From contig PLYM01000081.1 of the NCBI GenBank assembly GCA_003153375.1, positions 1-35,153 on the forward strand: 35,153 nucleotides of DNA. The letters run 5' to 3'. This document shows, in pieces, positions 6,631 to 35,153 of the stretch. How positions within the stretch are numbered: the stretch's first letter is position 1; each line of letters starts with the position of its first letter. Under the pieces are notes generated by a model that was not told the origin of the DNA, ran no database searches, and saw nothing but the letters and a program-made list of their open reading frames with translations. Both the position numbers and the translations under genes were made by a program. Source of the stretch: Planctomycetaceae bacterium (GTDB taxonomy: Bacteria; Planctomycetota; Planctomycetia; Pirellulales; PALSA-1355).

Positions 6631-6717
6631 GCGCGCCAAACCCTCAAACACGAACCAACCCGACTCCACGTCCCTTCCCCAGCGTCAAAGCCCCGTGCCC
6701 CGCACCTCCCTTGTTTT

Positions 6718-6745
6718 CATCCTTCATCCTTCCGCCTTCATCCTT
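6718..6745 (+). repeat. Heptamer tandem repeat CATCCTT
   Basis: CATCCTT occurs at 6718-6724 and 6725-6731, a variant CCGCCTT at 6732-6738 and CATCCTT again at 6739-6745, in a pyrimidine-rich stretch. It lies between the terminator at 6630 and the first Hint gene. Similar ATCCTTC-type tracts turn up in intergenic DNA of many bacteria; no function is apparent. Confidence 0.7.
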
Positions 6746-6860
6746 CCCTTCCCCCTATGCCGTTTGGCCTATCTGCCGAAAAAACATTGACTTGCAGCGT
6801 GAGAAAGGAGGACAATGCGCGTGCTGCAAACGGCACTTCTTGGAACGGAGGCACGTTGTC

Positions 6861-8609
6861 ATGCGATTCGCTCGAACGGGCTGCTCGGCTGCGCTGTTCG
6901 CGCTGTCCGTCGTCGCACTTCCCGTTGTCACGCGCGCCGCCGAAGCTCGCTTGCCGGTTGATACGAATTCGCCCGCTGGGCTGGTGCGCGCCGCGCTCGA
7001 ATCCGAATTGCTCGGCCCCTCGGAAGTGCGCGGCGAACTGCTCAAGCAGGCAATCGCCCGCGACCCCAACTTCGCCCCAGCCCGTTGGCAAAGTGGCTTC
7101 GTCCGTTGGGATGGCCAGTGGCTGACGCCCAGCGAAGTGGCTCAGCGCGCCGCCAGCGATCCGCTGTTGGCCGAGTATCGGAAGCGGCGCGACGCGATGG
7201 TGGACAAGGCCGACGATCATCGCGAGCTGGCCATCTGGTGTCACGACAGCAAGCTAATCGACCTCGAGCGCGTCCATTGGGTCAAGGTGCTCGAGTTTGA
7301 ATCAACTGATGAGCAAGCGCTGTCCGCTCTCGATTTACAGTGGCACGATGGTTACTTGCTCACACATCCGCAAATCGAACGCGCGACGGCGGCAGCTTTC
7401 GATCAGCGGAAGGCCAATAAATATTGGCAGCCTCGGGTGGCCAAATGGCGTACGGCGATCGATCGTGGAACGCCGTCGCAACGTGACAAGGCCATCGCCG
7501 AGATGGCCGCGATCTCCGATCACCACATTTTGCCGGCGTTTGAGGCCGTCTGTAGCGTTAATGGACAAGATACGTCGCCGGAGCTGCGGCAACTCGTGAT
7601 CGAAACCGTAAGTCGCATGCCCGAATTTGAGGCCACGCTGTTTCTCGTGCGGTACGCACTATTCACCGACTCACCGGAATTGCGTCAGGTTTGTGTGGCT
7701 GCCTTGAAGAAGCGGTCGCCACACATTTATGTGCCGCTTCTGCTTGCGGTTGTCCCAAAACAAATTGAGTCGCGGCATGCCTGGACGTACCTGGTCGACG
7801 GGACCTTTGTCCGAGATCACCAGTTTCTCCTTAAGGATGCCTATGGGTATCGTTTTTTCCGTCTTATCGACGAAGACGTGCCGATTAACCCTCGAGCGCG
7901 CCTAAGCGCAACCTGGATTGGTCTTCGACCCGCGGTGGCTCAGCAAGAAACCGCGGCGTTCACCAGTGAACTGGAGGACCGGCGCACCGAGCTGACCAGA
8001 CGACTGGGTGTGATTTGTTCTCAATTGGAGTTCCTGAAGAAGTCTCCCGAAGGCGATTGGCAAGAGGCCTGGGAACGTTACTGCGAGAGTTATAGCCCGC
8101 CGTCCGCGAGTCTTATCCGGTACAGCATTTCGCACCAAACGCGAAAAACTTTTTCGTGTTTTCCAGCCGGAACCCCCATTGGCACGATCGCCGGCCTCAG
8201 GCCGATTGAACGCCTCCGACCGGGAGATTTCGTCCTCGCGCAGAGCCCGCAATCGGGCGAGTTGGCCTACAAGCCCGTGCAGCGAGTCACGCTGCGGCCC
8301 GCGAGCCAACAGATCAGAATTCGCACCGGCGGCGAGACCTTGTCGGCCACGCGAGGGCATCTGTTTTGGTTGAACGACAAAGGCTGGGCCTTGGCCAAGC
8401 AATTAAAGGTTGGCGACCTGCTGCACACACCGAATGGATCGGTCGTGATCGACGAGCTGGCGGAGGCGCCCGCCCGCGAGGCCTATAACCTGGTCGTCGG
8501 CGACTTCAATTCTTACTTCGTCGGCGATCGGCAGTTGTTGGTCCACGATAATTCGCCCTTATTGGAGAGCAACGTGCGCGTGCCGGGATTGGTGGCGGAG
8601 AATCATTGA
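6861..8609 (+). CDS. Exported protein with C-terminal Hint (hedgehog/intein-type) domain, copy 1
   Basis: The 582-residue product has a signal peptide (residues 1-27), a helical region of TPR/HEAT-like character (30-290), a linker region, and a Hint domain from Cys433 (SCFPAGTPI) to about 564. Hint landmarks are Cys433 in the position of the self-splicing nucleophile, RPGDFVLAQ, the T-x-x-H motif Thr497-His500 (ATRGHLFW), and LLVHDNS (His562-Asp563-Asn564). Such domains can shift an N-S acyl bond and cleave the chain. Only 18 residues follow, ending VPGLVAENH, so no toxin is attached as in polymorphic toxins. GGAGG lies 9 bases before the ATG at 6861; a longer frame from 6711 lacks this and would bury the signal peptide. 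The next gene is a paralogue. Self-processing is inference from motifs. Confidence 0.8.
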   Translation: MRFARTGCSAALFALSVVALPVVTRAAEARLPVDTNSPAGLVRAALESELLGPSEVRGELLKQAIARDPNFAPARWQSGFVRWDGQWLTPSEVAQRAASDPLLAEYRKRRDAMVDKADDHRELAIWCHDSKLIDLERVHWVKVLEFESTDEQALSALDLQWHDGYLLTHPQIERATAAAFDQRKANKYWQPRVAKWRTAIDRGTPSQRDKAIAEMAAISDHHILPAFEAVCSVNGQDTSPELRQLVIETVSRMPEFEATLFLVRYALFTDSPELRQVCVAALKKRSPHIYVPLLLAVVPKQIESRHAWTYLVDGTFVRDHQFLLKDAYGYRFFRLIDEDVPINPRARLSATWIGLRPAVAQQETAAFTSELEDRRTELTRRLGVICSQLEFLKKSPEGDWQEAWERYCESYSPPSASLIRYSISHQTRKTFSCFPAGTPIGTIAGLRPIERLRPGDFVLAQSPQSGELAYKPVQRVTLRPASQQIRIRTGGETLSATRGHLFWLNDKGWALAKQLKVGDLLHTPNGSVVIDELAEAPAREAYNLVVGDFNSYFVGDRQLLVHDNSPLLESNVRVPGLVAENH

Positions 8610-8707
8610 TCGTCGAGGCTTCGATCGGCCGAACGCGAACGCGAGGAAACCGGGCGACGCCATCAGGGAACAAAAAAACAGGCAACGTAATTTTGGAGAT
8701 CCATCTC

Positions 8708-10558
8708 ATGCGACGCCATCGAATTGCAACTGTGGCCGCGCTCGTCGTGCTGGGTGGCATGATGCCCGCTGCTGTCGAGGCCGCCGAAGCACGCTTGCCG
8801 GTCGACAACGGCTCGCCCGCGGCCCTGGTGCGCGCGGCGCTCGAGTCGGAATTGGGCGGTCCCTCGGAAGTGCGCAGCGAGCTGCTCAAACAGGCGTTGG
8901 CCCGCGACCCCGATTATGCTCCGGCCCGCTGGCAAAGTGGCTTCGTCCGTTGGGACGGCAAGTGGCTCTCGCCCAGCGAAGTGGCGAGTCGCACGGCGCG
9001 TGATCCGCTGCTGGCGGAATATCGCAAGCGTCGCGACGCGATGGTGGACAAGGCCGACGACCATCGCGAGCTGGCCGCCTGGTGCCACAAGAACAAGCTT
9101 CTCGAGCAAGCGCGCCTGCACTGGCTGAAGGTGCTCGAATTCGAGCCGGCCGATGAACAAGCCCTGTCGGGCCTGGGGTTGCAGTGGTACGACGGTCGCT
9201 TGCTCACGGCCGCGCAGATCGAGCAGGGAAAAAAGGCGGCCATCGAACAGCGACGTGCCCACAAAGCCTGGCAGGCCCGGGCGACCAAATGGCGGGGAGC
9301 CATCGACCATGGCCCCGCGGGTCAGCGCGAGGCGGCGCTCGCCGAACTCAAAAAGGTTTCCGACGTCTCGGCGTTGCCGGCCTTGGAAGCCGCCTTCGGC
9401 ATCGGCGGCACGACGCAAAAAGCGATGGAGTTGAACCATCTGTTGATGCAAACGGTCAGCCGCATTCCAGGAGCCGAGTCGACGCGCGTCCTGCTGCGCC
9501 GCGCGCTAACGGCCGATTCCGAAGACGTTCGCGCCGCGGCCGCCGACGAGTTGAAAAAGCGACCGATGCACGCCTACGTGCCGCAATTGATCGCGGCCCT
9601 GCCGGGCACGCTGTCGACCCGGTTTCAAATCTCGATTCTGCCCAACGGCGCGTTGGTCTACGAGCACGAAGTGCTCATCGAGGGGCGCTCGGCGAATATC
9701 TCGCTCCGCTACGAATCGGCGGTAAATGCCGGCGATCCCTTGACCCTGATGGCGAGTTTGTCTGGCGATGCGGCCAGCGACGTGCGAACCGCCGCGCGCA
9801 TCGAATCGAGCGCCCGCGCGACCCAATCGCAGCTCGACGCATGGCGCGAGCGGGTTCAATGGGTGCTCGTGCGAACGACGGGGTTCGCCAATATCAGCGA
9901 TCCGGGTTTGTGGGAAAAACAATATAACGATTACAACGGCTGGCAAACGTCGCCGAAATACAAGCCGACCCTGTATCAAACTGCGTCCAATCAGCGAGGC
10001 TATGCGACTTCGCCGACCGACACGTATTTGAGCAGCGCCCCAAAGCCCGTCCCTATTTCTCCTTCTCTTCGCGCTTTTCCGTTGACCGCCTTTCCGCACA
10101 GCTCTTGCTTTGCCGCCGGCACGCCGATTCTCACCCAGTTCGGACCGCAGGCGATCGAAACGATCAAAGTGGGGGATCTCGTTTTGGCGCAGGATGGCGA
10201 AACCGGCGAACTGGCCTACAAGCCCGTTCAGGCCACGACCCTGTTGCCAGCGATTCCATTGTTGAAGATCACGAGCGGGTCCGACTCACTGGTAACAACG
10301 CCTGGACATCCCTTTTGGGTGAATGGCGCCGGCTGGCGAACCGCGAAGCAATTGACAACCGGTGAGCGTTTGCACGGTCTGAACGGCGCTATCGCGATCG
10401 ACCAGATCGAGCCGGTCAGGCCCTCGGAGGTCTACAATCTCGTCGTCGATGGTTACCACGACTACTTCGCCGGGTCGGCGCGTTTGCTGGCGCACGACTA
10501 TTCGTCGCCGTTGGAGAATACCGCCAGCGTGCCAGGACTCGTGGCTGACGGTCGGTGA
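8708..10558 (+). CDS. Exported protein with C-terminal Hint domain, copy 2
   Basis: This 616-residue paralogue starts 98 bases after the first copy's stop, with GGAG before the ATG at 8708 and a signal peptide ending near residue 26. Residues 28-170 match copy 1 almost position for position (LPVD, ALESELGGPSEVR, ARWQSGFVRWDG, YRKRRDAMVDKADDHREL). Residues 200-295 look like HEAT-type helical pairs (ADELKKRPMHAYVPQLIAAL). Residues 300-460 diverge and include a Tyr/Ser/Pro-rich linker. The Hint domain runs from Cys467 (SCFAAGTPI) through IKVGDLVLAQ and the T-x-x-H motif Thr531-His534 (TTPGHPFW) to LLAHDYS (His596-Asp597-Tyr598). The usual final Asn is absent, replaced by Asp-Tyr. The tail SVPGLVADGR echoes copy 1. 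Location should be periplasm or surface. Confidence 0.8.
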   Translation: MRRHRIATVAALVVLGGMMPAAVEAAEARLPVDNGSPAALVRAALESELGGPSEVRSELLKQALARDPDYAPARWQSGFVRWDGKWLSPSEVASRTARDPLLAEYRKRRDAMVDKADDHRELAAWCHKNKLLEQARLHWLKVLEFEPADEQALSGLGLQWYDGRLLTAAQIEQGKKAAIEQRRAHKAWQARATKWRGAIDHGPAGQREAALAELKKVSDVSALPALEAAFGIGGTTQKAMELNHLLMQTVSRIPGAESTRVLLRRALTADSEDVRAAAADELKKRPMHAYVPQLIAALPGTLSTRFQISILPNGALVYEHEVLIEGRSANISLRYESAVNAGDPLTLMASLSGDAASDVRTAARIESSARATQSQLDAWRERVQWVLVRTTGFANISDPGLWEKQYNDYNGWQTSPKYKPTLYQTASNQRGYATSPTDTYLSSAPKPVPISPSLRAFPLTAFPHSSCFAAGTPILTQFGPQAIETIKVGDLVLAQDGETGELAYKPVQATTLLPAIPLLKITSGSDSLVTTPGHPFWVNGAGWRTAKQLTTGERLHGLNGAIAIDQIEPVRPSEVYNLVVDGYHDYFAGSARLLAHDYSSPLENTASVPGLVADGR

Positions 10559-24130: not shown

Positions 24131-24434
24131 GCGACACCCCCGTCTCTGTTGCCCTGCCTCAATTGTCCGCCTTTTGGCCAAGGTTGGTCAAACAACTCAT
24201 ATCGCCGAACGACAACGCTTCGAAAAGTGCTGCTTGGATTACCCTGAAACGGCGAATTCCGAACGAGTGCCCTCCGACACCCGCTCCGTAGGGCCAATGG
24301 GGCTCCCGCCCGCCGGTTGACCCTCTCGACAGGGGAGCTTAAATTGGAATGTTAGGCAAACGGGTCGCCCTGCGCGTGTAGCGGCAACCGGTTCTTCCGG
24401 AACGATTTAGGCTCTTCTCACTGGGTTGGTTTTC
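24131..24434. other. Divergent intergenic region before hisF
   Basis: This region separates the leftward membrane gene from hisF. No gene, terminator or convincing promoter was seen. hisF itself has only a weak ribosome-binding site. Confidence 0.35.
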
Positions 24435-25205
24435 ATGCTTGCGAAGCGCGTGATTCCCTGCCTGGATGTTCATCGGGGGAGGGTCGTCAAGGGAACGAAC
24501 TTTCTCAACTTGCGCGATGCCGGCGATCCGGTCGCCGTGGCGGCCCGCTATGAAGAGGAAGGGGCCGATGAGTTGGTCTTCCTGGACATCACGGCCAGCC
24601 ACGAGGATCGCGACATCATGCTCGACGTGGTGCGGCGGACGGCCGAGATGGTCTTCATGCCCCTGTGCGTCGGCGGCGGCATCCGCACCTTGGAAGATAT
24701 TCGCCAGTTGCTGCTGGCCGGCAGCGACAAGGTCTCGATCAACACGGCCGCTTCCAGCAATCCCGAGTTCGTGCGCGAGGCGGCCAAGCGGTTCGGCAAT
24801 CAGTGCATCGTGGTCAATATCGACCCCAAGCGGGTGCAAAAAGACGGCCGCGAGGTCTGGGAAGTCCACACCCACGGCGGACGGAGGCCGACCGGACTGG
24901 AGGCCGTGGCCTGGGCTCGCGAGGTCGAGCAACTGGGCGCCGGCGAGATTGTGCTCACGAGCATGGATGCCGACGGGACGAAGAACGGTTACGATCTGGA
25001 GATCACCCGCGCGGTGAGCGACGCGGTGACCATTCCGGTGGTGGCCAGCGGCGGTGCCGGCAAGCCCGAGCACCTGGCCGACGCCATCCTGGAAGGCAAG
25101 GCCGACGCGGCCCTGGCGGCCAGCATCTTTCATTTTGGCGAGTACACGATCAGCGAAACCAAACGAGTCATGCGAGAGCGAGGCATTCCCGTGCGGGAGG
25201 TCTAG
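24435..25205 (+). CDS. hisF: Imidazole glycerol phosphate synthase cyclase subunit HisF
   Basis: The 256-residue product is a complete HisF, the TIM-barrel subunit that uses ammonia from HisH to turn PRFAR into imidazole glycerol phosphate and AICAR in histidine synthesis. [20 protein letters not shown] contains Asp11, the catalytic acid. [12 protein letters not shown] and the second catalytic aspartate in [13 protein letters not shown] are present, as is [13 protein letters not shown] for phosphate binding. The ATG at 24435 is preferred; a TTG three codons earlier is the only alternative. No other his gene is adjacent, so the pathway is scattered as is common in planctomycetes. Confidence 0.97.
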
Positions 25206-25289: not shown

Positions 25290-26441
25290 ATGGCTACCAC
25301 TGTTGATCCACGAGCGGCGAAACCGAACGTGCGAAAACGACCCGAACTCGAAGTCGACAAGCTGTTCACGGCGCTGGTGAAGCTCGAGGGGAGCGACTTG
25401 CACCTGAAGGCCGAGTGCCCGCCCCACGTGCGCGTCAAAGGCAGCCTGCGCCCGTTGAACCGCGGCCCGATCGATGACGAGGAGATGGAACGGCTGCTGA
25501 TGCCGATGCTGGACGAGCGCAACCGCAAGATCTACGCCGAGACCGGCGGGGCCGACTTCGCCCACTCGATGGAAGTCGACGGCGTCCGCTGGCGGTTCCG
25601 CGTCAACATGCTCAGGCAAATGGGGCACATGGGCCTGGTAGCTCGTCGCGTGAGCAACTGGATTCCGAACTTCGAGGGTTTGTATCTGCCGCCGCAGATG
25701 GTCGAGCTGTGCAAGTTCGACCAGGGCATGGTGCTCTTGGCCGGCGTCACCGGATCGGGCAAGACGACCACGATCGCCTCGATGCTCAACTGGGTCAACG
25801 CCAACTATCGCAAGCACATCCTGACGCTCGAAGACCCGATCGAATTCATCTACACCGAGGATAAGTGCCTGATCAACCAGCGCGAAATCGGGCTGGACGT
25901 GAAGGACTTCGAAATCGGCATGAAGCACGCCGTCCGCGAAGATCCGGACGTGATGCTGGTGGGCGAAATGCGCGATCGGGAAACGTTCATGACCGCCATT
26001 CACGCGGCCGAAACGGGCCACTTGGTGTTCGGCACGATTCACGCCTCGAGCGCCGCCACCACGATCGGCCGTATTCTCGACTTGTTCCCGGCCGACATGC
26101 ACGCGGCCCTGCGCAGCGCCATCGCCTTCAACATGCGCGGCATCGTGGCCCAGAAGCTCTTGCCCTCGATCAAGCCGGGCGTCAGCCGCGTGCCCACGGT
26201 CGAGATCATGACCTTCAGCCCCACGGTGCGCAAGCTGATCCTCGAGGAAAAGGACAGCAAGTTGCCCGACGCGATCCGTATGTCGGCTCGCGAGGGGATG
26301 CAGGATTTCACGATGAGCCTGATCGACCTGGTGAACAAGGATCTGGTCGATCGCACCGTCGCATTGGAAGTTGCGCCAAACACCGAAGCCCTGAAAATGG
26401 CGCTCAAGGGCATCGCCGTTTCGCAACCTGGAATTCTCTAA
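25290..26441 (+). CDS. pilT: PilT-like type IV pilus/type II secretion ATPase
   Basis: The 383-residue product is a PilT/GspE-superfamily hexameric ATPase of PilT length. The N-terminal PAS-like part has SDLHLKAECPPHVRVKGSLR. The ATPase part has Walker A GVTGSGKTT (152-160), the Asp box TLEDPIEFIY, Walker B DVMLVGEMRDRETF and the His box TGHLVFGTIHA. PilT usually powers pilus retraction. GAGGAGG lies just before the ATG. Its stop codon overlaps the next gene's start (TAATG), so translation is coupled with the degenerate GspE relative. No pilin genes are here except the DUF1559 protein downstream, whose link to PilT is doubtful. It might serve another envelope machine. Confidence 0.9.
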   Translation: MATTVDPRAAKPNVRKRPELEVDKLFTALVKLEGSDLHLKAECPPHVRVKGSLRPLNRGPIDDEEMERLLMPMLDERNRKIYAETGGADFAHSMEVDGVRWRFRVNMLRQMGHMGLVARRVSNWIPNFEGLYLPPQMVELCKFDQGMVLLAGVTGSGKTTTIASMLNWVNANYRKHILTLEDPIEFIYTEDKCLINQREIGLDVKDFEIGMKHAVREDPDVMLVGEMRDRETFMTAIHAAETGHLVFGTIHASSAATTIGRILDLFPADMHAALRSAIAFNMRGIVAQKLLPSIKPGVSRVPTVEIMTFSPTVRKLILEEKDSKLPDAIRMSAREGMQDFTMSLIDLVNKDLVDRTVALEVAPNTEALKMALKGIAVSQPGIL

Positions 26442-28207
26442 TGCTGCGCTGGTTGATCGTGTTGGCCGCGGCGGTGACCATTTGCGCCGTCGACGCGCAA
26501 TGGTTGTTGGCCGCCGAAGACGATGGCGACTGGGTGTCGCTGGGCGTGCCCTTCAAGCGCGGGCCGGGCGGATACTTCAGCATTTGGAAGCTGCTGGGCT
26601 TCTGGCTGCTGTTCCTGCTCTGGGTGCGCACCACCGACTGGGTCAGCCAGGACGGCCAGAAGCTCAAAGTGCGCCATGGGCTGTGGAACGGAATCGTCTT
26701 CTTCTCGTTCTTCGTCGCCATTCTGTTGTTCTTCATCGTCCCCTGGTTTGCCCTGGGCTTCAGCCTGATGGCCGTGGCCTACATCGCGCCGTTGGCCAGC
26801 TATGTCGTCTATCGCAACAAGCAGGTGACGGCCTCTTCCGACAAGGTGATGACCCGCAAGCACATTCGCCGCTGGATGGCGCGACGCGTCAGCCTGGTGG
26901 GCATCAAGATGGCTGGGGCCGAAGTCGATCCCGACGAACAAGGCCCCGACGTGCAGTTCAAAGCCCTGGGCGGCGCGACGGATCGCGACAACAGCATGAA
27001 TCTGATCACGGCCCGCCAGTCGCCGGGCTTTCTGCCGGCGCGCGAACTGTTCGACGACGCCTTTCACCAGCGGGCCACCCACGTGATGCTCGACTATACC
27101 CCCGAGACAGTCGGCGTGCGCTACCAGGTCGACGGCGTCTGGCACGACCGCGCCGCGCTGGAGCGCGAGAGCGGCGATGCGATACTGGAAGTGTTCAAGC
27201 GTCTGGCCGCGCTCAAGGTCGAGAATCGCCGCGCCCGGCAGTCGGGGTCGTTCGGTGTCGAGATCGGCAAGGAAAAATTCGGTTCCAAGATCGTCAGCCA
27301 GGGAACGCAGACCGGCGAGCGCGTGCTGCTGCAACTGGAGCAATCGAAGCTCTCGTTCAAGTCGCCCGACGACATCGGCATGCGCACGAAGACCCAGGAG
27401 CAGCTGACCGAGCTGCTGGCGCAGAACGGCCTGCTGATTTTCTCGGCCATGCCCGGCGGCGGTTTGAGCACGACGATCGACGTCGTGCTGACCAACACCG
27501 ATCGATTCATCCGCAACTACGTGGCGGTGATCGATACCGCCAAGAACGAGCGCGAGATCGAAAACGTGCAGGTCACGACATTTTCGTCCGCCGATGGCGA
27601 GACGCCCGCCACGGTGTTGCCCAAGCTGCTGCGCACGTATCCCGACGTGGTCCTGGTGCGCGACGTGGCCGACCTGGAAACGCTGACCATTCTCTGCGAG
27701 CAAAAGGCCGACAAGCGGCTGGCGATCACCAGCGTGCGTGCCAAGGAAGCCGTGGAAGCGCTGTTGCGGTTGATGATGCTCAAGATTCCGCCGGCCGACT
27801 TCGCCGAAGTCGCCCTAGGCGTGGTGAACACCCGGCTCATTCGCAAGCTGTGCGAAAAGTGCAAGGAAGCCTATCCGCCGCCGGCCGAGGTCCTCAAGCA
27901 GCTGGGTCTGCCGGCCGGGCGCATCGAGTCGCTCTATCGCACCCCCACGCAACCCATCGATCCCAAAAAGCCGGAAGTGGTCTGCGACCAGTGCCAGGGC
28001 ATCGGCTATCTCGGGCGGACCGCCATTTTCGAGCTGCTGGTGGTCGACGACACGATTCGACACGTGCTGACCACGGCGCCCAAGCTCGAGAACCTGCGGG
28101 CCGCGGCACGCAAGGGCAAGCAACGTAGCTTGCAGGATGAGGGCGTGTTGCTCGTCGCCCGTGGCGTGACGTCGATCCAAGAACTGCTGCGCGTGCTCAA
28201 ACAATAG
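26441..28207 (+). CDS. Membrane-anchored GspE/PilB-like pseudo-ATPase
   Basis: The 588-residue product overlaps the pilT stop by one base. Hydrophobic segments at about 1-24, 50-65 and 85-122 place it in the inner membrane, which normal GspE/PilB ATPases are not. Residues 195-540 align in order with the GspE/PilB core: THVMLDYTPETVGVRYQVDG, a block resembling the region before Walker A, then FSAMPGGGLSTTID (335-347) where GPTGSGKTTT is expected, and PDVVLVRDVADLETL (401-415) where Walker B would read P-D-x-x-x-x-G-E-x-R-D. The P-loop lysine and Walker B glutamate are gone. The zinc motif Cys471/Cys474 and Cys515/Cys518 (CEKCKEAY, CDQCQGIGYLGRTAIFELL) is intact. It is probably a non-hydrolysing partner of the PilT-like ATPase. 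Confidence 0.8.
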   Translation: MLRWLIVLAAAVTICAVDAQWLLAAEDDGDWVSLGVPFKRGPGGYFSIWKLLGFWLLFLLWVRTTDWVSQDGQKLKVRHGLWNGIVFFSFFVAILLFFIVPWFALGFSLMAVAYIAPLASYVVYRNKQVTASSDKVMTRKHIRRWMARRVSLVGIKMAGAEVDPDEQGPDVQFKALGGATDRDNSMNLITARQSPGFLPARELFDDAFHQRATHVMLDYTPETVGVRYQVDGVWHDRAALERESGDAILEVFKRLAALKVENRRARQSGSFGVEIGKEKFGSKIVSQGTQTGERVLLQLEQSKLSFKSPDDIGMRTKTQEQLTELLAQNGLLIFSAMPGGGLSTTIDVVLTNTDRFIRNYVAVIDTAKNEREIENVQVTTFSSADGETPATVLPKLLRTYPDVVLVRDVADLETLTILCEQKADKRLAITSVRAKEAVEALLRLMMLKIPPADFAEVALGVVNTRLIRKLCEKCKEAYPPPAEVLKQLGLPAGRIESLYRTPTQPIDPKKPEVVCDQCQGIGYLGRTAIFELLVVDDTIRHVLTTAPKLENLRAAARKGKQRSLQDEGVLLVARGVTSIQELLRVLKQ

Positions 28208-28220
28208 GAGAGCTCAGGCG

Positions 28221-28832
28221 ATGTTTCTCGGCATTATCCTCATCTTGCTCTTTGTCTCGGTGTTCGCCGGTCTGATGACTAGCGGGCTGTGGAGCAACAC
28301 GATCACGCTAATCAACGTGCTGCTGGCCGGGACGATCGCGACCTGCTACTTCGAGCCGGTGGCCGACTTCTTCGAAACGCAGGAGCCTAGCTACACGTAC
28401 CTTTGGGACTTCTTCGCCATCTGGCTGATCTTTTGCCTGGTGATGATCTTTCTGCGTTTTGCCACCGACTTCGTGTCGCGCATCAAGGTCAAGTTCTTCA
28501 TGCCGGTCGAACGCGTCGGAAACATCGTCATGGCCTTGTGGGTCAGCTGGGTGATGGTCTGTTTCACGTTGGCCACGTTCCACACCGCTCCCTTGGCGCG
28601 CAATTTTCTGGGAGGCGCGTTTCAGCCCAAGCCGAACTCGCGGATGCTGTTCAACATCGGCCCCGATCAGTTTTGGCTCGGTTGGGTGCATCGCGAGACC
28701 GGCGGCCCGCTGAGCCGCATTGGCACCGTTTCGCAGTTCGACCCCAGCGGCGAATTCATCCTCAAATACGGCAGCCGCCGCGATGAATTCGATCATCAAA
28801 TCGGGCTCACCAAGAGCAAGACGGGCGGCTAA
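28221..28832 (+). CDS. CvpA-like inner membrane protein
   Basis: The 203-residue product has four membrane helices in about 125 residues (GIILILLFVSVFAGLMTSGL; TLINVLLAGTIATCYFEPVA; FFAIWLIFCLVMIFLRFATD; VGNIVMALWVSWVMVCFTLA), matching the plan of CvpA-family proteins, followed by a soluble tail of about 75 residues with FNIGPDQFWLGWVHRETG. CvpA is linked to envelope robustness and colicin V release in proteobacteria; the role here is open. AGGAG lies before the ATG, 13 bases after the pseudo-ATPase stop, so it is the third gene of the pilT operon. Confidence 0.75.
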   Translation: MFLGIILILLFVSVFAGLMTSGLWSNTITLINVLLAGTIATCYFEPVADFFETQEPSYTYLWDFFAIWLIFCLVMIFLRFATDFVSRIKVKFFMPVERVGNIVMALWVSWVMVCFTLATFHTAPLARNFLGGAFQPKPNSRMLFNIGPDQFWLGWVHRETGGPLSRIGTVSQFDPSGEFILKYGSRRDEFDHQIGLTKSKTGG

Positions 28833-29120: not shown

Positions 29121-30155
29121 ATGTTCTCCGTAAGACGTCGTGACCCCCTCGGACAACGCAGCTTTTCGCGGGTTTCGCAAGGGTTTACGTTGGTCGAACT
29201 GCTAGTCGTGATCGCCATCATCGGCGTGCTGGTGGCCCTGCTGTTACCGGCAATTCAATCGGCCCGCGAAAGTGCCCGCCGCACAACCTGCTCCAATAAC
29301 TTGAAGCAGGTCGGCCTGGCGCTCAACGAGCACGCCTCGGTCAAGAAGGCCTATCCTCCGGGTCAAAAGGTGACATGCACGAATTGCGACCCCTGGGCCT
29401 GGTCGGCCATGATCCTGCCCTACATGGAACAGGCGGAAATCTTCGGTCTGCTCAACTTCACCCGCCAGCCCAACGATCCGCTGTTTTCGGTCGCCATGAC
29501 GGGCCGGGTCATCAACACCTACCTTTGCCCGACCACCGGCGGTCAATTGGATCCCTCGCGCGATGATTCGGCGCACATCGTCAACTTCTACGGTCAGACC
29601 GCCACCAAGGCCGGCACCGGCATGGCCTGCAGCGACTACGGCGGAATCGAAGGACCGCACAACGCGACTCCAGTTGTCAACCCAGCGACGAACCAAGTCT
29701 ATGCCGCCAATATGGGCGTGCTGCTCAAGGCCACGGCGAACGTCATATCGACCGCGCCCATGATCCGGCCCAAGGACATCACCGACGGATTGACGTACAC
29801 GATGGCGGTCGGCGAGATGGCGGGCCGGGGATTCAACGCGAAATCCTCGAAGCTCAAACTCAGCGGCACGTGGGCCGATGGGTTCAACACGGCAAATCTC
29901 CAGCTACCGTTCAGCGCCCCGCCGGGGCCGCCCCCCTTCGGTTCGGGGGCGCTGCCCAACTCCACGAATTATGCCAACTGGTGCCCGGCGTTCGCTTCCG
30001 ACGAATTGATCTCCTATCACACCGGCGGTGGCCAGATCTTGATGTGCGATGGGTCGGTACACTTCATGGGCTCGGACGTCTCGCAGGTTATCTTGTGGTC
30101 GATGTGCTCGCGCAAGGGGAACGAGACGATTCCCGAGCGCTGGGCCGGCGATTGA
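29121..30155 (+). CDS. DUF1559 protein with prepilin-type N-terminus
   Basis: The 344-residue product has a type IV prepilin leader: basic residues, then G21 and FTLVELLVVIAIIGVLVALL with Glu at mature position 5, which a prepilin peptidase would cut and methylate. The body carries DUF1559 marks: PAIQSARESARRTTCSNNLK, WSAMILPYMEQAEIFGLLNF, ITDGLTYTMAVGEMAGR and the C-terminal H-x9-D-G sequence HTGGGQILMCDGSVHFM. Planctomycetes hold dozens to hundreds of such proteins; they are thought to be envelope or pseudopilin-like, with unknown function. It lies in the same direction as the giant adhesin-like gene that follows after 221 bases. Confidence 0.93.
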   Translation: MFSVRRRDPLGQRSFSRVSQGFTLVELLVVIAIIGVLVALLLPAIQSARESARRTTCSNNLKQVGLALNEHASVKKAYPPGQKVTCTNCDPWAWSAMILPYMEQAEIFGLLNFTRQPNDPLFSVAMTGRVINTYLCPTTGGQLDPSRDDSAHIVNFYGQTATKAGTGMACSDYGGIEGPHNATPVVNPATNQVYAANMGVLLKATANVISTAPMIRPKDITDGLTYTMAVGEMAGRGFNAKSSKLKLSGTWADGFNTANLQLPFSAPPGPPPFGSGALPNSTNYANWCPAFASDELISYHTGGGQILMCDGSVHFMGSDVSQVILWSMCSRKGNETIPERWAGD

Positions 30156-30376
30156 CCACCCGTTGCTTGTCGCGAGCGGCCGATACTTCGACGCGAGCGG
30201 GTACGGCGAGAGTTCGTCGACGCATGTCGACTTCTAATCGGACCCTAACGCTCCGCTAACTTTTGACGACTAGACTCTGCCGCAAGTCAAGCTATCTCGA
30301 CGTCGCCATCTTGCTCGCTTGCGGATGTCGTCGCGCGTCGCCGCAGTCAGTGCGCCATACCAGGAGTCCCTCGCAG

Positions 30377-33300
30377 ATGTCCAAGAATCCCAGGCAACGG
30401 TCTTCCTCGAAAAAGTCCCTTTCTTCCTCGCGCCAGCGCCAGCGACTCGAACGCGCGCGGCCTCGCGGGCTGAACATCTTCGAGGAACTGGAAGCGCGAC
30501 GCATGCTCTCGGCATTCACGCCCGGTGATTTGGCGGTTGTACGCATGGGCACCGGCGCCAGCAGCCTGACGAGCGCCAGCACGGCGGTCTTTATCGACGA
30601 ATACACTCCGGCGGGCGTGCTGGTGCAGTCGATTGCCATGCCCACGGCCGACAGCGGCCCGCAGCACGCGTTGACCAACAGCGGCAGCGGCACCTCGGAA
30701 GGCGAGCTCAACCTGTCGAGCAACGGTCAGTATCTGACCTTGGTCGGCTACGACAGCGTTCCCGGCGTCGCGTCGATTTCTGGCACCTTGTCGACGGCGG
30801 TGCCGCGCACCGTCGGCGTGGTCGGCGTCAGCGGCTCGGTCGACACCACCACGGCCCTGACTGACTTTGCCAGCGCCAACAATCCCCGCGCCGCGGTCAC
30901 CTCCGACGGCACGAACATCTGGGTGGCCGGCGCCGACGCCAGCGCCGGCGGCGTCCGCTATGCGACCATCGGAAGTACGACATCGACCGATCTGACCGGC
31001 ACGGCGCCCAAGAACGCGCGCGACGTGGAAATCTTCAACGGTCAGCTTTACGCTGCCTCGGACAAAACCACGCAAATCATCGGCACGGTCGGCACCGGCC
31101 TACCCACGGTCGCGGCCGGCACATTTTTCACGGGATTGAGCGGCGCGGCCCTGGCGCCCGGCACAAACAGCGCCACCAACTCGTTCTACTTCGCTCGCCT
31201 GGGTAGCGGACCGGCCCAGAACGGCTACGACACGTTGTATGTCGCCGACTCGTCGGGCACCGTCACCGCCGCCACGCCCGGCGTGACCAAATACTCTTAC
31301 GACGGCACGAATTGGAACTCCAACGGTTCGGTCGGCGGAATTGGGGCCTTTCAAGGACTGACGGGCTCGGTCAGCGGTGGCGTCGTCAAACTCTACGTCA
31401 CGCAGACCACGGGCATTTCGTCGATCACCGACAGCTCGGGCTTCAACGGAACGTTGACCGCGTCGGTGACGGCTGTGGCCTCGGCCGCGAGCAACGAGGC
31501 GTTCCGCGGAATCGCCTTCGTTCCACAGTTGCCGGCGATTCACTTCAGCGTGACGGCCAGTCCGCCCACGGACACGGCCGGCACGTCGTTCAGCGTGACG
31601 GTCACGGCACGCGATAGCTCGAACAACGTCGTGCCCGGATACACCGGAACCGTCCACTTCACGACCAGCGATGGCGGCGCGGTCACCCTGCCCAGCAACT
31701 ACACGTTCACCGGCGGGGACGCGGGCGTTCACACGTTCACCGGTGCGTCGGGCGTGACGCTGGTCACGGCCGGCAGTCAAACGGTCACCGCCACCGACAC
31801 CGTGAACGGCGGCTTTGGCACGGCCAACGTTACGATCACCGCGGCGGCCCTCTCGAAGTTGGGCGTCACGGCGCCGGTCGATTCAACCGCGGGCACCGCC
31901 TTCGCGATCACCGTCGCTGCCCAGGATCAATATGGCAACACGGTCACCAACTATACGGGCACGGTCCACTTCACCGGCGGCGGCGCCGGCGCCACGCGGC
32001 CAGCCGATTACACCTTCGTGGCTGGCGACAACGGCGTACACACGTTCACCGGCGGAGTCACGCTGTTGGCCGCGGGTAACCAGACGATCACCGCGACGGA
32101 TGCCGCCCACGCGGTGAACGGCAGCGCGACCGTGCAGAACTTCGTCGTCGCGCCATTCACGCCGGGTGACGTCGTGGTCTATCGCGTCGGCCTGGGCGGA
32201 GCCAACGTTCTCTCGGGAGCGTCGGCCCCCGTGTTCCTCGACGAATATACTCCGGCGGGCGCGCTGGTACAGTCGGTACCCATGCCGGTGCTTTCGGTCG
32301 CCGGGGGCAATCAAACACTGACCGGTACCGGCAACGCCGAGTCAGAGGGGCAACTCACGATCTCGCCGAGTGGCGCCTACGTGTCCGTAACCGGCTACAA
32401 CGCGCCGGTCGGCACCGGATTGGTTTCAGCCACCTCGAGCGCCACCAATCCGCGTACCGTCGCTCTGGTCGACTATACCGGCCACGTCAATAGCACCACG
32501 TCGTTGACGGATTTCTCCACGGGCAACAATTTCCGCAGCGCCATTACGTCCGACGGAGTGAACATCTGGGTTGCGGGCGCCAACGGAGGAGTCGGGTACA
32601 CGACCGTCGGCGCAACGACGACAACCGATATCGATCCCAGCGGCGAACAAAACTTGCGCTCTTTGGCGATCACTGACGGCCAGCTCTATGCCTCGTCGCA
32701 AAAGTCAGTCCGCTTGGCCACCGTCGGCAACGGCGTGCCCACTACGCCCGACCAACCGGTGACGAATCTGCCGGCCAACGTGCCCGGCAACGGCAGCATG
32801 GAAACACCCAACGGCTTTTTCCTCGCCGACCTGAATTCCAGCGGGAGCGCCGACACGCTCTACTTGACTGACGACACGGCCGGCGACATCGAAAAGTTTT
32901 CCTTGAGCAGCGGCGTGTGGAATTTCGACGGCGCGATCACGGCGCCCTTGATTTGCGGTCTGACTGGCGTCGTCAGCGGTTCGACCGTCACGCTCTATGG
33001 CACGGCCAGCGGCGCCGTCAGCCAATCGGGCACGCTCTATTCGTTTACCGATGCCAGTGGATTCGGCGGTGTTGTCTCGGGCGGCATGAACACGATCGCC
33101 ACGGCCGCCAGCAACGAGGCGTTTCGCGGCGTGGCCCCGGTGCCACAACTGGTCACGGCCACGCACTTCGCCGTTTCCGCGCCTACCAGCTCGACCGCTG
33201 GCACGGCCTTCAGCATCACCGTGTCGGCTCGCGACGCCAGCAACAACGTGGTGACGAGTTTTACCGGCACGGTCCACTTCACCACCTCGGATGCCGCGGC

Positions 33301-35153
33301 CCTGGCCATTCCGGCCGACTACACGTTCGTGGCCGGAGATCACGGCTCGCACACGTTCACGAATCTGACGAACCTGGTCACAGCGGGCACGCAAACCATC
33401 AACGCCGGCGGTTCGATCTTTGGCAGCGCCAACCTGACGATCAATCCGGCGGCGGCCAACCATCTGGTCATCACTCCGCCGGCCGCCGCCAACGCGGGCA
33501 CGCCGTTCAGCTTCACCGTCACGGCCACCGATCCGTACGGCAACACCGCGACCAGCTACACCGGAACCGTGCAGCTCAGCAAGAGCGACAGCGGCGTGGG
33601 GTCGGCCATTGCCGGCAACTACCATTTCGTGGCCGGCGACAACGGCGCGCACACCTTTGTGAACGGTGCCACGCTCGTCACCGGATACAGTCAAACCATC
33701 TCGGCCGCCGACACGGTCACGCCGTCGATCAACGGCAGCGTCAACGTGCCGGTCATCCAACCATTCGTCGGCGGCGACGTCGTCGTCTACCGCGTGGGCG
33801 ACGGCGGCAGCGCGCTGGTCGGCGACGGCACCGCGGTGTTTCTCGACGAGTACTCGCCGAGCGGAACCCTGGTGCAGTCCATTCCCATGCCCACCGCCTC
33901 GGTCGGCGGCGGAAACCAGGCCCTGGTTGCCAGCGGCTCCGCCACCTCGGAAGGTCAATTGACCCTCTCGGCCAACAATGCCTACTTGGTGCTCACCGGC
34001 TACGACGCCGCGCTGGGAACAGCGAGCGTCTCGGGCACGACCAGCGCCTCAGTTCCGCGCACTGTGGGATTGGTCAGCGCCGCGGGCGTGGTCAATACCA
34101 CGACGGCTTTGACCAACGCCTCTTCCGGAAACAACGTGCGCACCGCCACCAGCACCGACGGCACAAGCCTCTGGGTGGCCGGCGGCGCCGGCGGCGTTGT
34201 CTATGCCACCGTGGGCAGCAGCACCGGGACGGCCATCGCTCCTGCCGGCGAGCAAAATCTCCGCGAGCTTGGCGTCTTCAATGGGCAGCTTTACGTCTCG
34301 TCGCAAAAAACGCTCACGCTGGGCACCGTGGGAACCGGCACTCCAACCACGAGCCCGCAATCGCTGACCAATCTCCCGGGACTGCCGGCGACCGGCAGCA
34401 CGTTGGCCCCCAACAGCTTCTTCCTGGCGCACCTGAACGGCGCCGGCACGAGCGTCGATACGCTCTACATCACCGACACGGCTACGAACCCAGCTCTGGG
34501 GCAGATCGACAAATACTCGCTCGTCGGCGGCACCTGGATCGCGTCCGGATCGATCACTGTCGACGCCGGGCTCACCGGCGTCACGGGTGTCGTCAACGGC
34601 GGCAACGTCAAGCTCTACGCGACATCGAGCGGCACGGCCGGCTCCGCGGGCTCGCTGTTTACGTTCACCGACACGACGGGATATAACGCCTCGGTGTCGG
34701 GCGGAGCGGCGGCCCTCAGTTCGGCAACCGCCAACGAAGCCTTCCGCGGCGTCGCGCTGGTCCCCACCGTCACCATCACTCCCAACACCGCTCCGACCGT
34801 CGACCTGAACGGCGCCGCGGCGGGCACGAGCTTCACGGCGTCGTGGAGCGGCAGCGCTGCGGTGGCGATCACCGATGCGGCCAACGCCACGGTGACGGAC
34901 AACGGGACAACGCTGGCTTCGATGACGGTCACGCTCACCAGCCCACACACGGGCGACGTGTTGGCTGCCAACACCAGCGGCACCAGCATTACGCAGAGCT
35001 TCACCGGTGGCGCACTCACGTTGACCGGCAGCGACACCGTTGCCGATTACCAGCAAGTGTTGCGAACGGTCACCTACAACAACACCACGGGTGGTCCGGG
35101 TGTGGCAGTCGAAACGGCCACGGTGGTTGCCAACGATGGCTTCCTCAACAGCA
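30377..35153 (+). CDS. Giant modular surface protein with LEPR-XLL-like motif (3' end outside window)
   Basis: The frame is open from the ATG at 30377 (AGGAG 10 bases upstream) to the window end, at least 1592 codons. The first 36 residues are very basic and Ser/Arg-rich, then FEELEARRMLSA (35-46) matches the LEPR-XLL motif near the N-terminus of large planctomycete extracellular proteins. From residue 47 it consists of modules of about 540 residues, starting at 47, 594 and 1130. Each begins with PGD-x-x-V-x-R-x-G and VF(I/L)DEY(T/S)P and forms a beta-rich, propeller-like region of some 340 residues ending near NEAFRG. Modules 1 and 2 then have two Ig-like (Big-type) domains with T-A-G-T-x-F and Y-T-G-T-V-x-x. 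The third instead continues with NTAPTVDLNGAAAGT, a cadherin/VCBS-like region. Likely a surface adhesin; the end is not seen. Confidence 0.88.
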   Translation, partial: MSKNPRQRSSSKKSLSSSRQRQRLERARPRGLNIFEELEARRMLSAFTPGDLAVVRMGTGASSLTSASTAVFIDEYTPAGVLVQSIAMPTADSGPQHALTNSGSGTSEGELNLSSNGQYLTLVGYDSVPGVASISGTLSTAVPRTVGVVGVSGSVDTTTALTDFASANNPRAAVTSDGTNIWVAGADASAGGVRYATIGSTTSTDLTGTAPKNARDVEIFNGQLYAASDKTTQIIGTVGTGLPTVAAGTFFTGLSGAALAPGTNSATNSFYFARLGSGPAQNGYDTLYVADSSGTVTAATPGVTKYSYDGTNWNSNGSVGGIGAFQGLTGSVSGGVVKLYVTQTTGISSITDSSGFNGTLTASVTAVASAASNEAFRGIAFVPQLPAIHFSVTASPPTDTAGTSFSVTVTARDSSNNVVPGYTGTVHFTTSDGGAVTLPSNYTFTGGDAGVHTFTGASGVTLVTAGSQTVTATDTVNGGFGTANVTITAAALSKLGVTAPVDSTAGTAFAITVAAQDQYGNTVTNYTGTVHFTGGGAGATRPADYTFVAGDNGVHTFTGGVTLLAAGNQTITATDAAHAVNGSATVQNFVVAPFTPGDVVVYRVGLGGANVLSGASAPVFLDEYTPAGALVQSVPMPVLSVAGGNQTLTGTGNAESEGQLTISPSGAYVSVTGYNAPVGTGLVSATSSATNPRTVALVDYTGHVNSTTSLTDFSTGNNFRSAITSDGVNIWVAGANGGVGYTTVGATTTTDIDPSGEQNLRSLAITDGQLYASSQKSVRLATVGNGVPTTPDQPVTNLPANVPGNGSMETPNGFFLADLNSSGSADTLYLTDDTAGDIEKFSLSSGVWNFDGAITAPLICGLTGVVSGSTVTLYGTASGAVSQSGTLYSFTDASGFGGVVSGGMNTIATAASNEAFRGVAPVPQLVTATHFAVSAPTSSTAGTAFSITVSARDASNNVVTSFTGTVHFTTSDAAALAIPADYTFVAGDHGSHTFTNLTNLVTAGTQTINAGGSIFGSANLTINPAAANHLVITPPAAANAGTPFSFTVTATDPYGNTATSYTGTVQLSKSDSGVGSAIAGNYHFVAGDNGAHTFVNGATLVTGYSQTISAADTVTPSINGSVNVPVIQPFVGGDVVVYRVGDGGSALVGDGTAVFLDEYSPSGTLVQSIPMPTASVGGGNQALVASGSATSEGQLTLSANNAYLVLTGYDAALGTASVSGTTSASVPRTVGLVSAAGVVNTTTALTNASSGNNVRTATSTDGTSLWVAGGAGGVVYATVGSSTGTAIAPAGEQNLRELGVFNGQLYVSSQKTLTLGTVGTGTPTTSPQSLTNLPGLPATGSTLAPNSFFLAHLNGAGTSVDTLYITDTATNPALGQIDKYSLVGGTWIASGSITVDAGLTGVTGVVNGGNVKLYATSSGTAGSAGSLFTFTDTTGYNASVSGGAAALSSATANEAFRGVALVPTVTITPNTAPTVDLNGAAAGTSFTASWSGSAAVAITDAANATVTDNGTTLASMTVTLTSPHTGDVLAANTSGTSITQSFTGGALTLTGSDTVADYQQVLRTVTYNNTTGGPGVAVETATVVANDGFLNS
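30515..32155 (+). repeat. Module 1 of the giant protein (547 residues)
   Basis: It starts with FTPGDLAVVRMG and VFIDEYTPAGVLVQSIAMP, includes ASNEAFRGIAFVPQ, and closes with two Ig-like domains from about 31541 and 31850. Confidence 0.8.
32156..33763 (+). repeat. Module 2 of the giant protein (536 residues)
   Basis: It starts with FTPGDVVVYRVG and VFLDEYTPAGALVQSVPMP, includes ASNEAFRGVAPVPQ, and closes with two Ig-like domains from about 33158 and 33458. Confidence 0.8.
33764..34784 (+). repeat. Module 3 of the giant protein, propeller-like part only
   Basis: It starts with FVGGDVVVYRVG and VFLDEYSPSGTLVQSIPMP and ends at TANEAFRGVALVP. The two Ig-like domains are missing; a different domain (NTAPTVDLNG onward) follows to the window end. 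Confidence 0.8.

Follow-up and report, generated by a model that had tools for sequence, protein, structure and literature searches.

The stretch of DNA analysed here (the window: 35,153 nucleotides, contig PLYM01000081.1 of assembly GCA_003153375.1, a Planctomycetaceae bacterium of the order Pirellulales) carries on its forward strand, at positions 25290-28832 and behind hisF, three genes encoding a PilT-family ATPase (PilTx), a membrane-anchored PilB/GspE-type protein (mPilB) and a CvpA-like membrane protein. By its gene layout this trio is a tight operon downstream of hisF, and by its occurrence it is no local oddity but is kept across the order. Substitutions at the nucleotide site together with conservation of the remainder mark mPilB as a pseudo-enzyme under selection. 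We give an even chance to the reading that an anchored, non-hydrolysing PilB-type ring together with the CvpA-like protein docks the dedicated PilTx, so that the three would form one inner-membrane machine. The trio points to a membrane machine in Planctomycetota that has hardly been studied; among the open-access papers listed by our searches we found neither a description of the trio or of a naturally dead anchored PilB, nor a paper joining CvpA, PilT and type II secretion.

Gene layout and nucleotide site of the PilB-type protein

In the window hisF ends 84 bases before pilT, the start ATG of mPilB shares one base with the PilT stop (TAATG), and the CvpA-like gene begins 13 bases after the mPilB stop (Table 1). 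Coupling of mPilB to an intact PilT-like ATPase and a CvpA gene behind it had both been proposed in a note made from the sequence alone (the initial annotation), and both were found. A frameshift or a wrong mPilB start was considered and rejected, given the overlap of this ATG with the PilT stop and an orthologue alignment without interruption. A scan for promoters and terminators gave results no better than those for shuffled sequences.

PilTx comprises 383 amino acids and reaches 382 bits against TIGR01420 (cut-off 319), which makes it a full member of the PilT/PilU family, and its Asp box, Walker B and His box are all intact, as is its Walker A. What separates it from PilT and PilU is its own clade within the order and an operon whose other members encode a PilB-type protein and CvpA, not type IV pilus components. 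The catalytic motifs of trio-type PilT are intact in every row among those listed.

In mPilB, PF00437 matches the C-terminal 385 residues with 150 bits, and the scores lie far under the NCBIfam equivalog cut-offs (173 bits versus 630 for TIGR02533, 140 versus 676 for TIGR02538). An AlphaFold2 (AF2) model built from 29 orthologues (predicted local distance difference test score, pLDDT, 81.7; predicted template modelling score, pTM, 0.65) has a core that matches Thermus thermophilus PilF/PilB at 26% identity with a TM-score of 0.86 by target (Foldseek E 6e-34). Thus mPilB resembles PilB and GspE in its N2D-CTD fold, its tetracysteine zinc domain and its PF00437 match, but differs from them in that its own anchor replaces the cytoplasmic N1 domains, the site is dead in this order, the protein belongs to a separate clade and no PilC adjoins it. 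E204 and the His-box histidine have been shown to be important in PilT (PMC6858323), and a tetracysteine zinc motif marks assembly and not retraction ATPases (PMC5061722). mPilB carries this assembly-type motif and lacks a functional Walker A lysine, the catalytic glutamate and the His box, the last two being the residues found important in PilT.

Residues were tallied over 81 distinct sequences of the order, i.e. 91 aligned rows minus one off-family row and nine duplicates. The position of the Walker A lysine is occupied by L in 70 sequences, M in 7, F in 2, and Y and T in 1 each, lysine being absent from all 81. At the position of the Walker B glutamate D is found in 51/80 and E in 21/80, making the exchange to aspartate common, though not universal, and the His-box position holds R in 64 of the 79 sequences tallied. 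The zinc cysteines are kept in 77-79 of the 81 sequences per site, the remainder being mostly gaps; at two loci (L110 and L124) the first of them is replaced too, by S and N, respectively. Loss of the P-loop lysine and of the Walker B glutamate with retention of the zinc cysteines, as claimed initially, therefore holds for the window protein, whereas across the order it applies to the lysine throughout and to the glutamate in part.

It is very improbable that mPilB still hydrolyses ATP through an unusual site: the preserved fold and the glutamate that some copies retain could be cited for it, but the lysine is missing everywhere and the His box and the Walker B glycine are also replaced in most sequences. 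Even less credible is a decaying relic or an annotation artefact, which the lost catalytic residues might bring to mind but which is refuted by conservation, namely dN/dS ratios (nonsynonymous to synonymous substitution rates) of 0.05-0.37 in 7 pairs, indicative of purifying selection, the kept zinc site, and a dead copy in every one of the 39 genomes examined in the order. Its order-wide occurrence likewise led us to reject decay confined to one lineage. As dN/dS is low and the gene order is coupled, mPilB is taken to be functional.

Besides the dead member, PilTx is found in 38/39 genomes of the order (65-92% identical where full length) and a CvpA-like gene in 36/39. The trio is also carried by Bythopirellula polymerisocia (L098), a cultured representative of Pirellulales. 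PilT lies upstream of mPilB in 28 of the 30 loci read (the exceptions being L029 and L036), and in 23 of these 28 the PilT stop overlaps the mPilB start, with starts chosen by a fixed rule and, for four loci, by hand. At two loci (L116 and L127) an anchored and a soluble dead copy stand in tandem between PilT and CvpA.

Table 1. Positions of the trio, its motifs and the preceding gene in the window
Feature	Position	Strand	Basis
PilTx, PilT-family ATPase of the trio	25290..26441	+	TIGR01420 match, motifs intact
Intact Walker A of PilTx, GVTGSGKTT	25743..25769	+	sequence
mPilB, membrane-anchored PilB/GspE-type pseudo-ATPase, 588 aa	26441..28207	+	PF00437, AF2 core, alignment
Signal-peptide-like N-terminus of mPilB, residues 1-24 (end approximate)	26441..26512	+	hydrophobic segment, AxA-like site
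Conserved RGPGxYLS-type stretch, residues 40-47, predicted periplasmic	26558..26581	+	alignment
Membrane anchor, predicted helices 48-75, 79-99, 103-128	26582..26824	+	AF2, hydropathy
Degenerate Walker A SAMPGGGLST, residues 335-344, Lys replaced by Leu342	27443..27472	+	alignment
Degenerate Walker B YPDVVLVRDVAD, residues 400-411, Gly replaced by Arg407, Glu by Asp408	27638..27673	+	alignment
His box replaced by conserved RAKEA, residues 433-437 (His position is R433)	27737..27751	+	alignment tally
Zinc-site cysteines C471, C474, C515, C518, kept	27851..27994	+	invariant in 29 aligned orthologues
CvpA-like membrane protein	28221..28832	+	PF02674, AF2 model
hisF, imidazole glycerol phosphate synthase subunit	24426..25205	+	TIGR00735, 396 bits

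Membrane anchor and CvpA-like protein

Membrane helices in this GspE/PilB relative had been noticed in the initial annotation, and three are indeed predicted, preceded by a signal-peptide-like helix that had gone unlisted. This N-terminal hydrophobic segment with its AxA-like site is present in 28 of 29 mPilB orthologues and forms a helix in the AF2 model (residues 2-23). The anchor proceeds from the RGPGxYLS stretch through a membrane helix, a loop with the conserved TDWV-QD...WN pattern and a helical hairpin to a basic cytoplasmic start; W82, Y121 and N126 are invariant in the 29 orthologues, and W82 and Y121 are kept in a 22-member alignment spanning the phylum.

The CvpA-like protein of the window scores 35.3 bits against PF02674 (gathering threshold 29.3), and its AF2 model (pLDDT 89.4, pTM 0.86) consists of four long helices and a C-terminal domain; with this model Foldseek returned no match in the Protein Data Bank at E <= 0.001. 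With CvpA it shares the four membrane helices and the curated Pfam match; it is unlike CvpA in its longer C-terminal part and in its operon with PilT and PilB. The role of E. coli CvpA, which has been connected with bile salt resistance (PMC6705877), is itself unclear. Outside the order the PF02674 results are mixed, with L141, L137 and L145 over the cut-off, L140, L142 and L144 below it and L133 without a match. Several loci of other classes (L139-L144) have a CvpA-like gene with a large additional C-terminal part (F12; 351-581 aa) fused to it.

Anchor and CvpA-like gene are present jointly and lost jointly. Within the order, 36 of the 37 genomes with an anchored mPilB have a CvpA-like gene, and in the remaining one (G034) the expected place of the gene coincides with the contig end. 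The other two genomes lacking it, G012 and G029, have no CvpA-like gene genome-wide and are exactly those with anchor-less mPilB copies. Four named loci (L108, L120, L124 and L125) are likewise without both anchor and CvpA.

Occurrence and history in Planctomycetota

A broad profile was run against 246 genomes sampled evenly across the phylum, with 5 candidates scored per genome. Among the best rows, the anchored protein occurs at >= 496 bits in at least 32 of the 246 genomes, and ordinary PilB/GspE rows begin after the anchor and mostly stay at or below 400 bits, with two rows of family f69, whose proteins likewise carry an N-terminal hydrophobic part, in between. Two further genomes (f23) score lower, yet have the anchor and a PilT neighbour. 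In the tree the anchored family is set off from pilus PilB as a single clade (support 100).

In the sister order (f21), which may be Planctomycetales, the mPilB homologues of 12/12 genomes have an intact Walker A. The same 12 genomes hold PilTx (60-67% identical) and a single CvpA-like gene, but in each of them either PilTx or the CvpA-like gene lies away from mPilB; the trio members co-occur even when unlinked. A further dead copy, soluble and about 440 aa long, lies apart from the trio in four loci of sister-order genomes that were read (L147, L148, L149 and L191); in L148 it stands near PilC-family and DUF1559 genes. Among other classes, the anchored homologues are intact in f51, f65 and f69 and dead, with different residues, in f94, f67, f89, f83, f76 and f23. 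PilT adjoins the anchored gene in all 14 loci of other classes that were read, and the order hisF-pilT-mPilB-CvpA recurs there. Pirellulales itself contains two genomes of one family (G010 and G027) with extra intact anchored copies besides the dead member, each followed by a CvpA-like gene.

Since the sister order and some other classes keep an intact Walker A, catalysis was lost inside an older anchored system, and the pair or the trio predates the loss. This contradicts the initial proposal that the anchor was gained together with the loss of catalysis, as anchored intact homologues occur in the sister order, in other classes and in G010 and G027. Homologues with an intact Walker A, which had been named as speaking against the proposed interpretation, accordingly exist in the wider family, but not among the trio copies of the order. 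That interpretation therefore stands in part: anchor, dead site, coupling to PilT, CvpA, conservation and lack of PilC are supported, while joint gain of the anchor is not. In a tree from all columns a single branch (support 95) sets the 55 dead rows apart, which conflicts with the species tree one would expect; once the catalytic columns had been removed, grouping the anchored proteins of Pirellulales with those of the sister order was not rejected (approximately unbiased test, p 0.249 and 0.182), a result that is unsafe given the long branches. One loss of catalysis and several losses both appear compatible with these trees.

The dead PilB-type domain might also act as a membrane sensor or regulator and not as part of a motor, comparable to the effect of PilB on Myxococcus exopolysaccharide. 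The conserved replacement motifs GGL and RAKE at the dead site suggest a binding surface, and Myxococcus PilB Walker mutants signal (PMC11656802). We nevertheless regard such a signalling scaffold as unlikely, for the paired ATPase is kept intact and the intact anchored relatives in sister lineages point to an origin in a machine.

Relation to type IV pili and a candidate inner-membrane machine

The usual view of PilB- and PilT-type ATPases is that of hydrolysing motors working through PilC. A PilC/GspF platform gene was found in none of 64 clusters, on which ground we consider the trio distinct from the ordinary type IV pilus locus that lies elsewhere in the same genome, in line with the distinction the initial annotation had thought possible. 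Nor is mPilB the only PilB of its genome, a possibility rejected on account of other T2SSE-family copies, three of them on contig C121, one each on C152 and C223, and a fragmentary match on C39; by our own reading the C121 copies are probably two PilB and one PilT, with a GspE-like protein on C152 and a CpaF-like one on C223.

In the machine that we propose, the three helices of its anchor would tether mPilB to the inner membrane, where the CvpA-like protein would be its partner. The cytoplasmic part of mPilB, still of PilB fold and with its zinc domain yet incapable of normal ATP binding or hydrolysis in this order, would serve as a fixed ring or docking scaffold, and a soluble PilTx hexamer would supply ATP-driven movement. 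The scaffold would then stand where type IV filament machines have a PilC-type platform and a GspL/PilM-type tether. The GspF/PilC platform, for which an ion-channel model has been put forward with PulF (PMC10790770), and the membrane partner of mPilB would both serve a PilB-type ring, a likeness of function for which no sequence relation is claimed. As cargo, a first guess is a pilin-family filament, of which these genomes have many. The sequences themselves show the conserved gene set, the missing catalytic residues of mPilB, an intact PilTx, the anchor, and the joint presence and loss of anchor and CvpA; physical contact between the proteins, ring formation, direction of force and cargo are features that we infer.

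A dead member working beside a live one has a precedent in the PilT-PilU pair, as Vibrio cholerae PilT Walker mutants still retract with PilU (PMC11656802); in the trio, unlike that pair, the dead member is natural and not a mutant, of PilB type and membrane-anchored. PilU and other additional retraction ATPases are known as accessories (PMC11656802), which lends some weight to our main rival explanation, in which PilTx and mPilB form an accessory retraction or regulatory module that docks on the resident PilC and modulates ordinary type IV pili or filaments resembling the type II secretion system in trans. PilC-family proteins do occur elsewhere in all 39 genomes of the order, together with further PilB-type and mostly further PilT-type copies. 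Yet the clusters themselves are devoid of PilC, the anchor and CvpA would duplicate PilC/PilM-type tethers, and PilTx forms a separate clade, sharing only 36-46% identity with the majority of the other PilT proteins in the order. We hold this module to be possible, though less probable than one machine made of the trio.

Several observations weigh against the trio acting as one machine. hisF, which is probably a conserved upstream neighbour and not part of the machine, is likewise kept beside the trio (45/64 neighbourhoods), so that gene order by itself is no proof of joint function. Evidence that anchor and CvpA were lost jointly comes from one family (f10) and from four loci that cluster in the tree, hence from few events, and four rumen Thermoguttaceae loci (L115, L119, L122 and L129) keep the anchor with no CvpA next door, as judged from their neighbourhoods. 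One genome (G024) has dead mPilB and the CvpA-like gene without PilTx, and no PilT was found in the stretches read beside the intact anchored copies of G010 and G027, which together make PilTx the loosest member of the trio.

A bolder reading, which we offer tentatively, is that the trio represents an inner-membrane motor specific to Planctomycetota, independent of PilC and descended from type IV filament machines; its platform would consist of the anchored PilB-type ring and CvpA, PilT would supply the drive, and in whole lineages the ring would have become purely structural. Such a motor could drive traffic in the envelope of cells that are known to take up macromolecules in an unusual way. 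Reports tie appendages and crateriform structures of planctomycetes to the uptake of macromolecules (PMC8303584, PMC11958385), but nothing links these structures to the trio genes. A naturally dead anchored PilB beside a live PilT, with intact versions in sister lineages, amounts to an experiment by nature on the role of the ring beyond hydrolysis. The trio also points to a machine that is testable in genetically tractable Planctomycetota such as Planctopirus limnophila, a member of the Planctomycetales (PMC8303584) for which insertion data (PMC10632474) and tools for deleting genes (PMC11958385) exist; the main text of the essential-gene paper on this species names no PilT, CvpA or type IV genes.

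Directly after the CvpA-like gene the window has a DUF1559 pilin-like gene (29121-30155; PF07596 with N-methylation motif). In many relatives this place belongs to F3, a weakly DUF4190-like gene encoding about 250 aa, which occurs in 34/64 neighbourhoods and is absent here. From 30263 to 35152 a 1630-aa open frame runs off the contig end; it matches no convincing family and is possibly a large repetitive surface protein. At 6711-10558, two neighbouring proteins of 632 and 650 aa each carry a C-terminal pretoxin HINT domain (PF07591, 62 and 67 bits).

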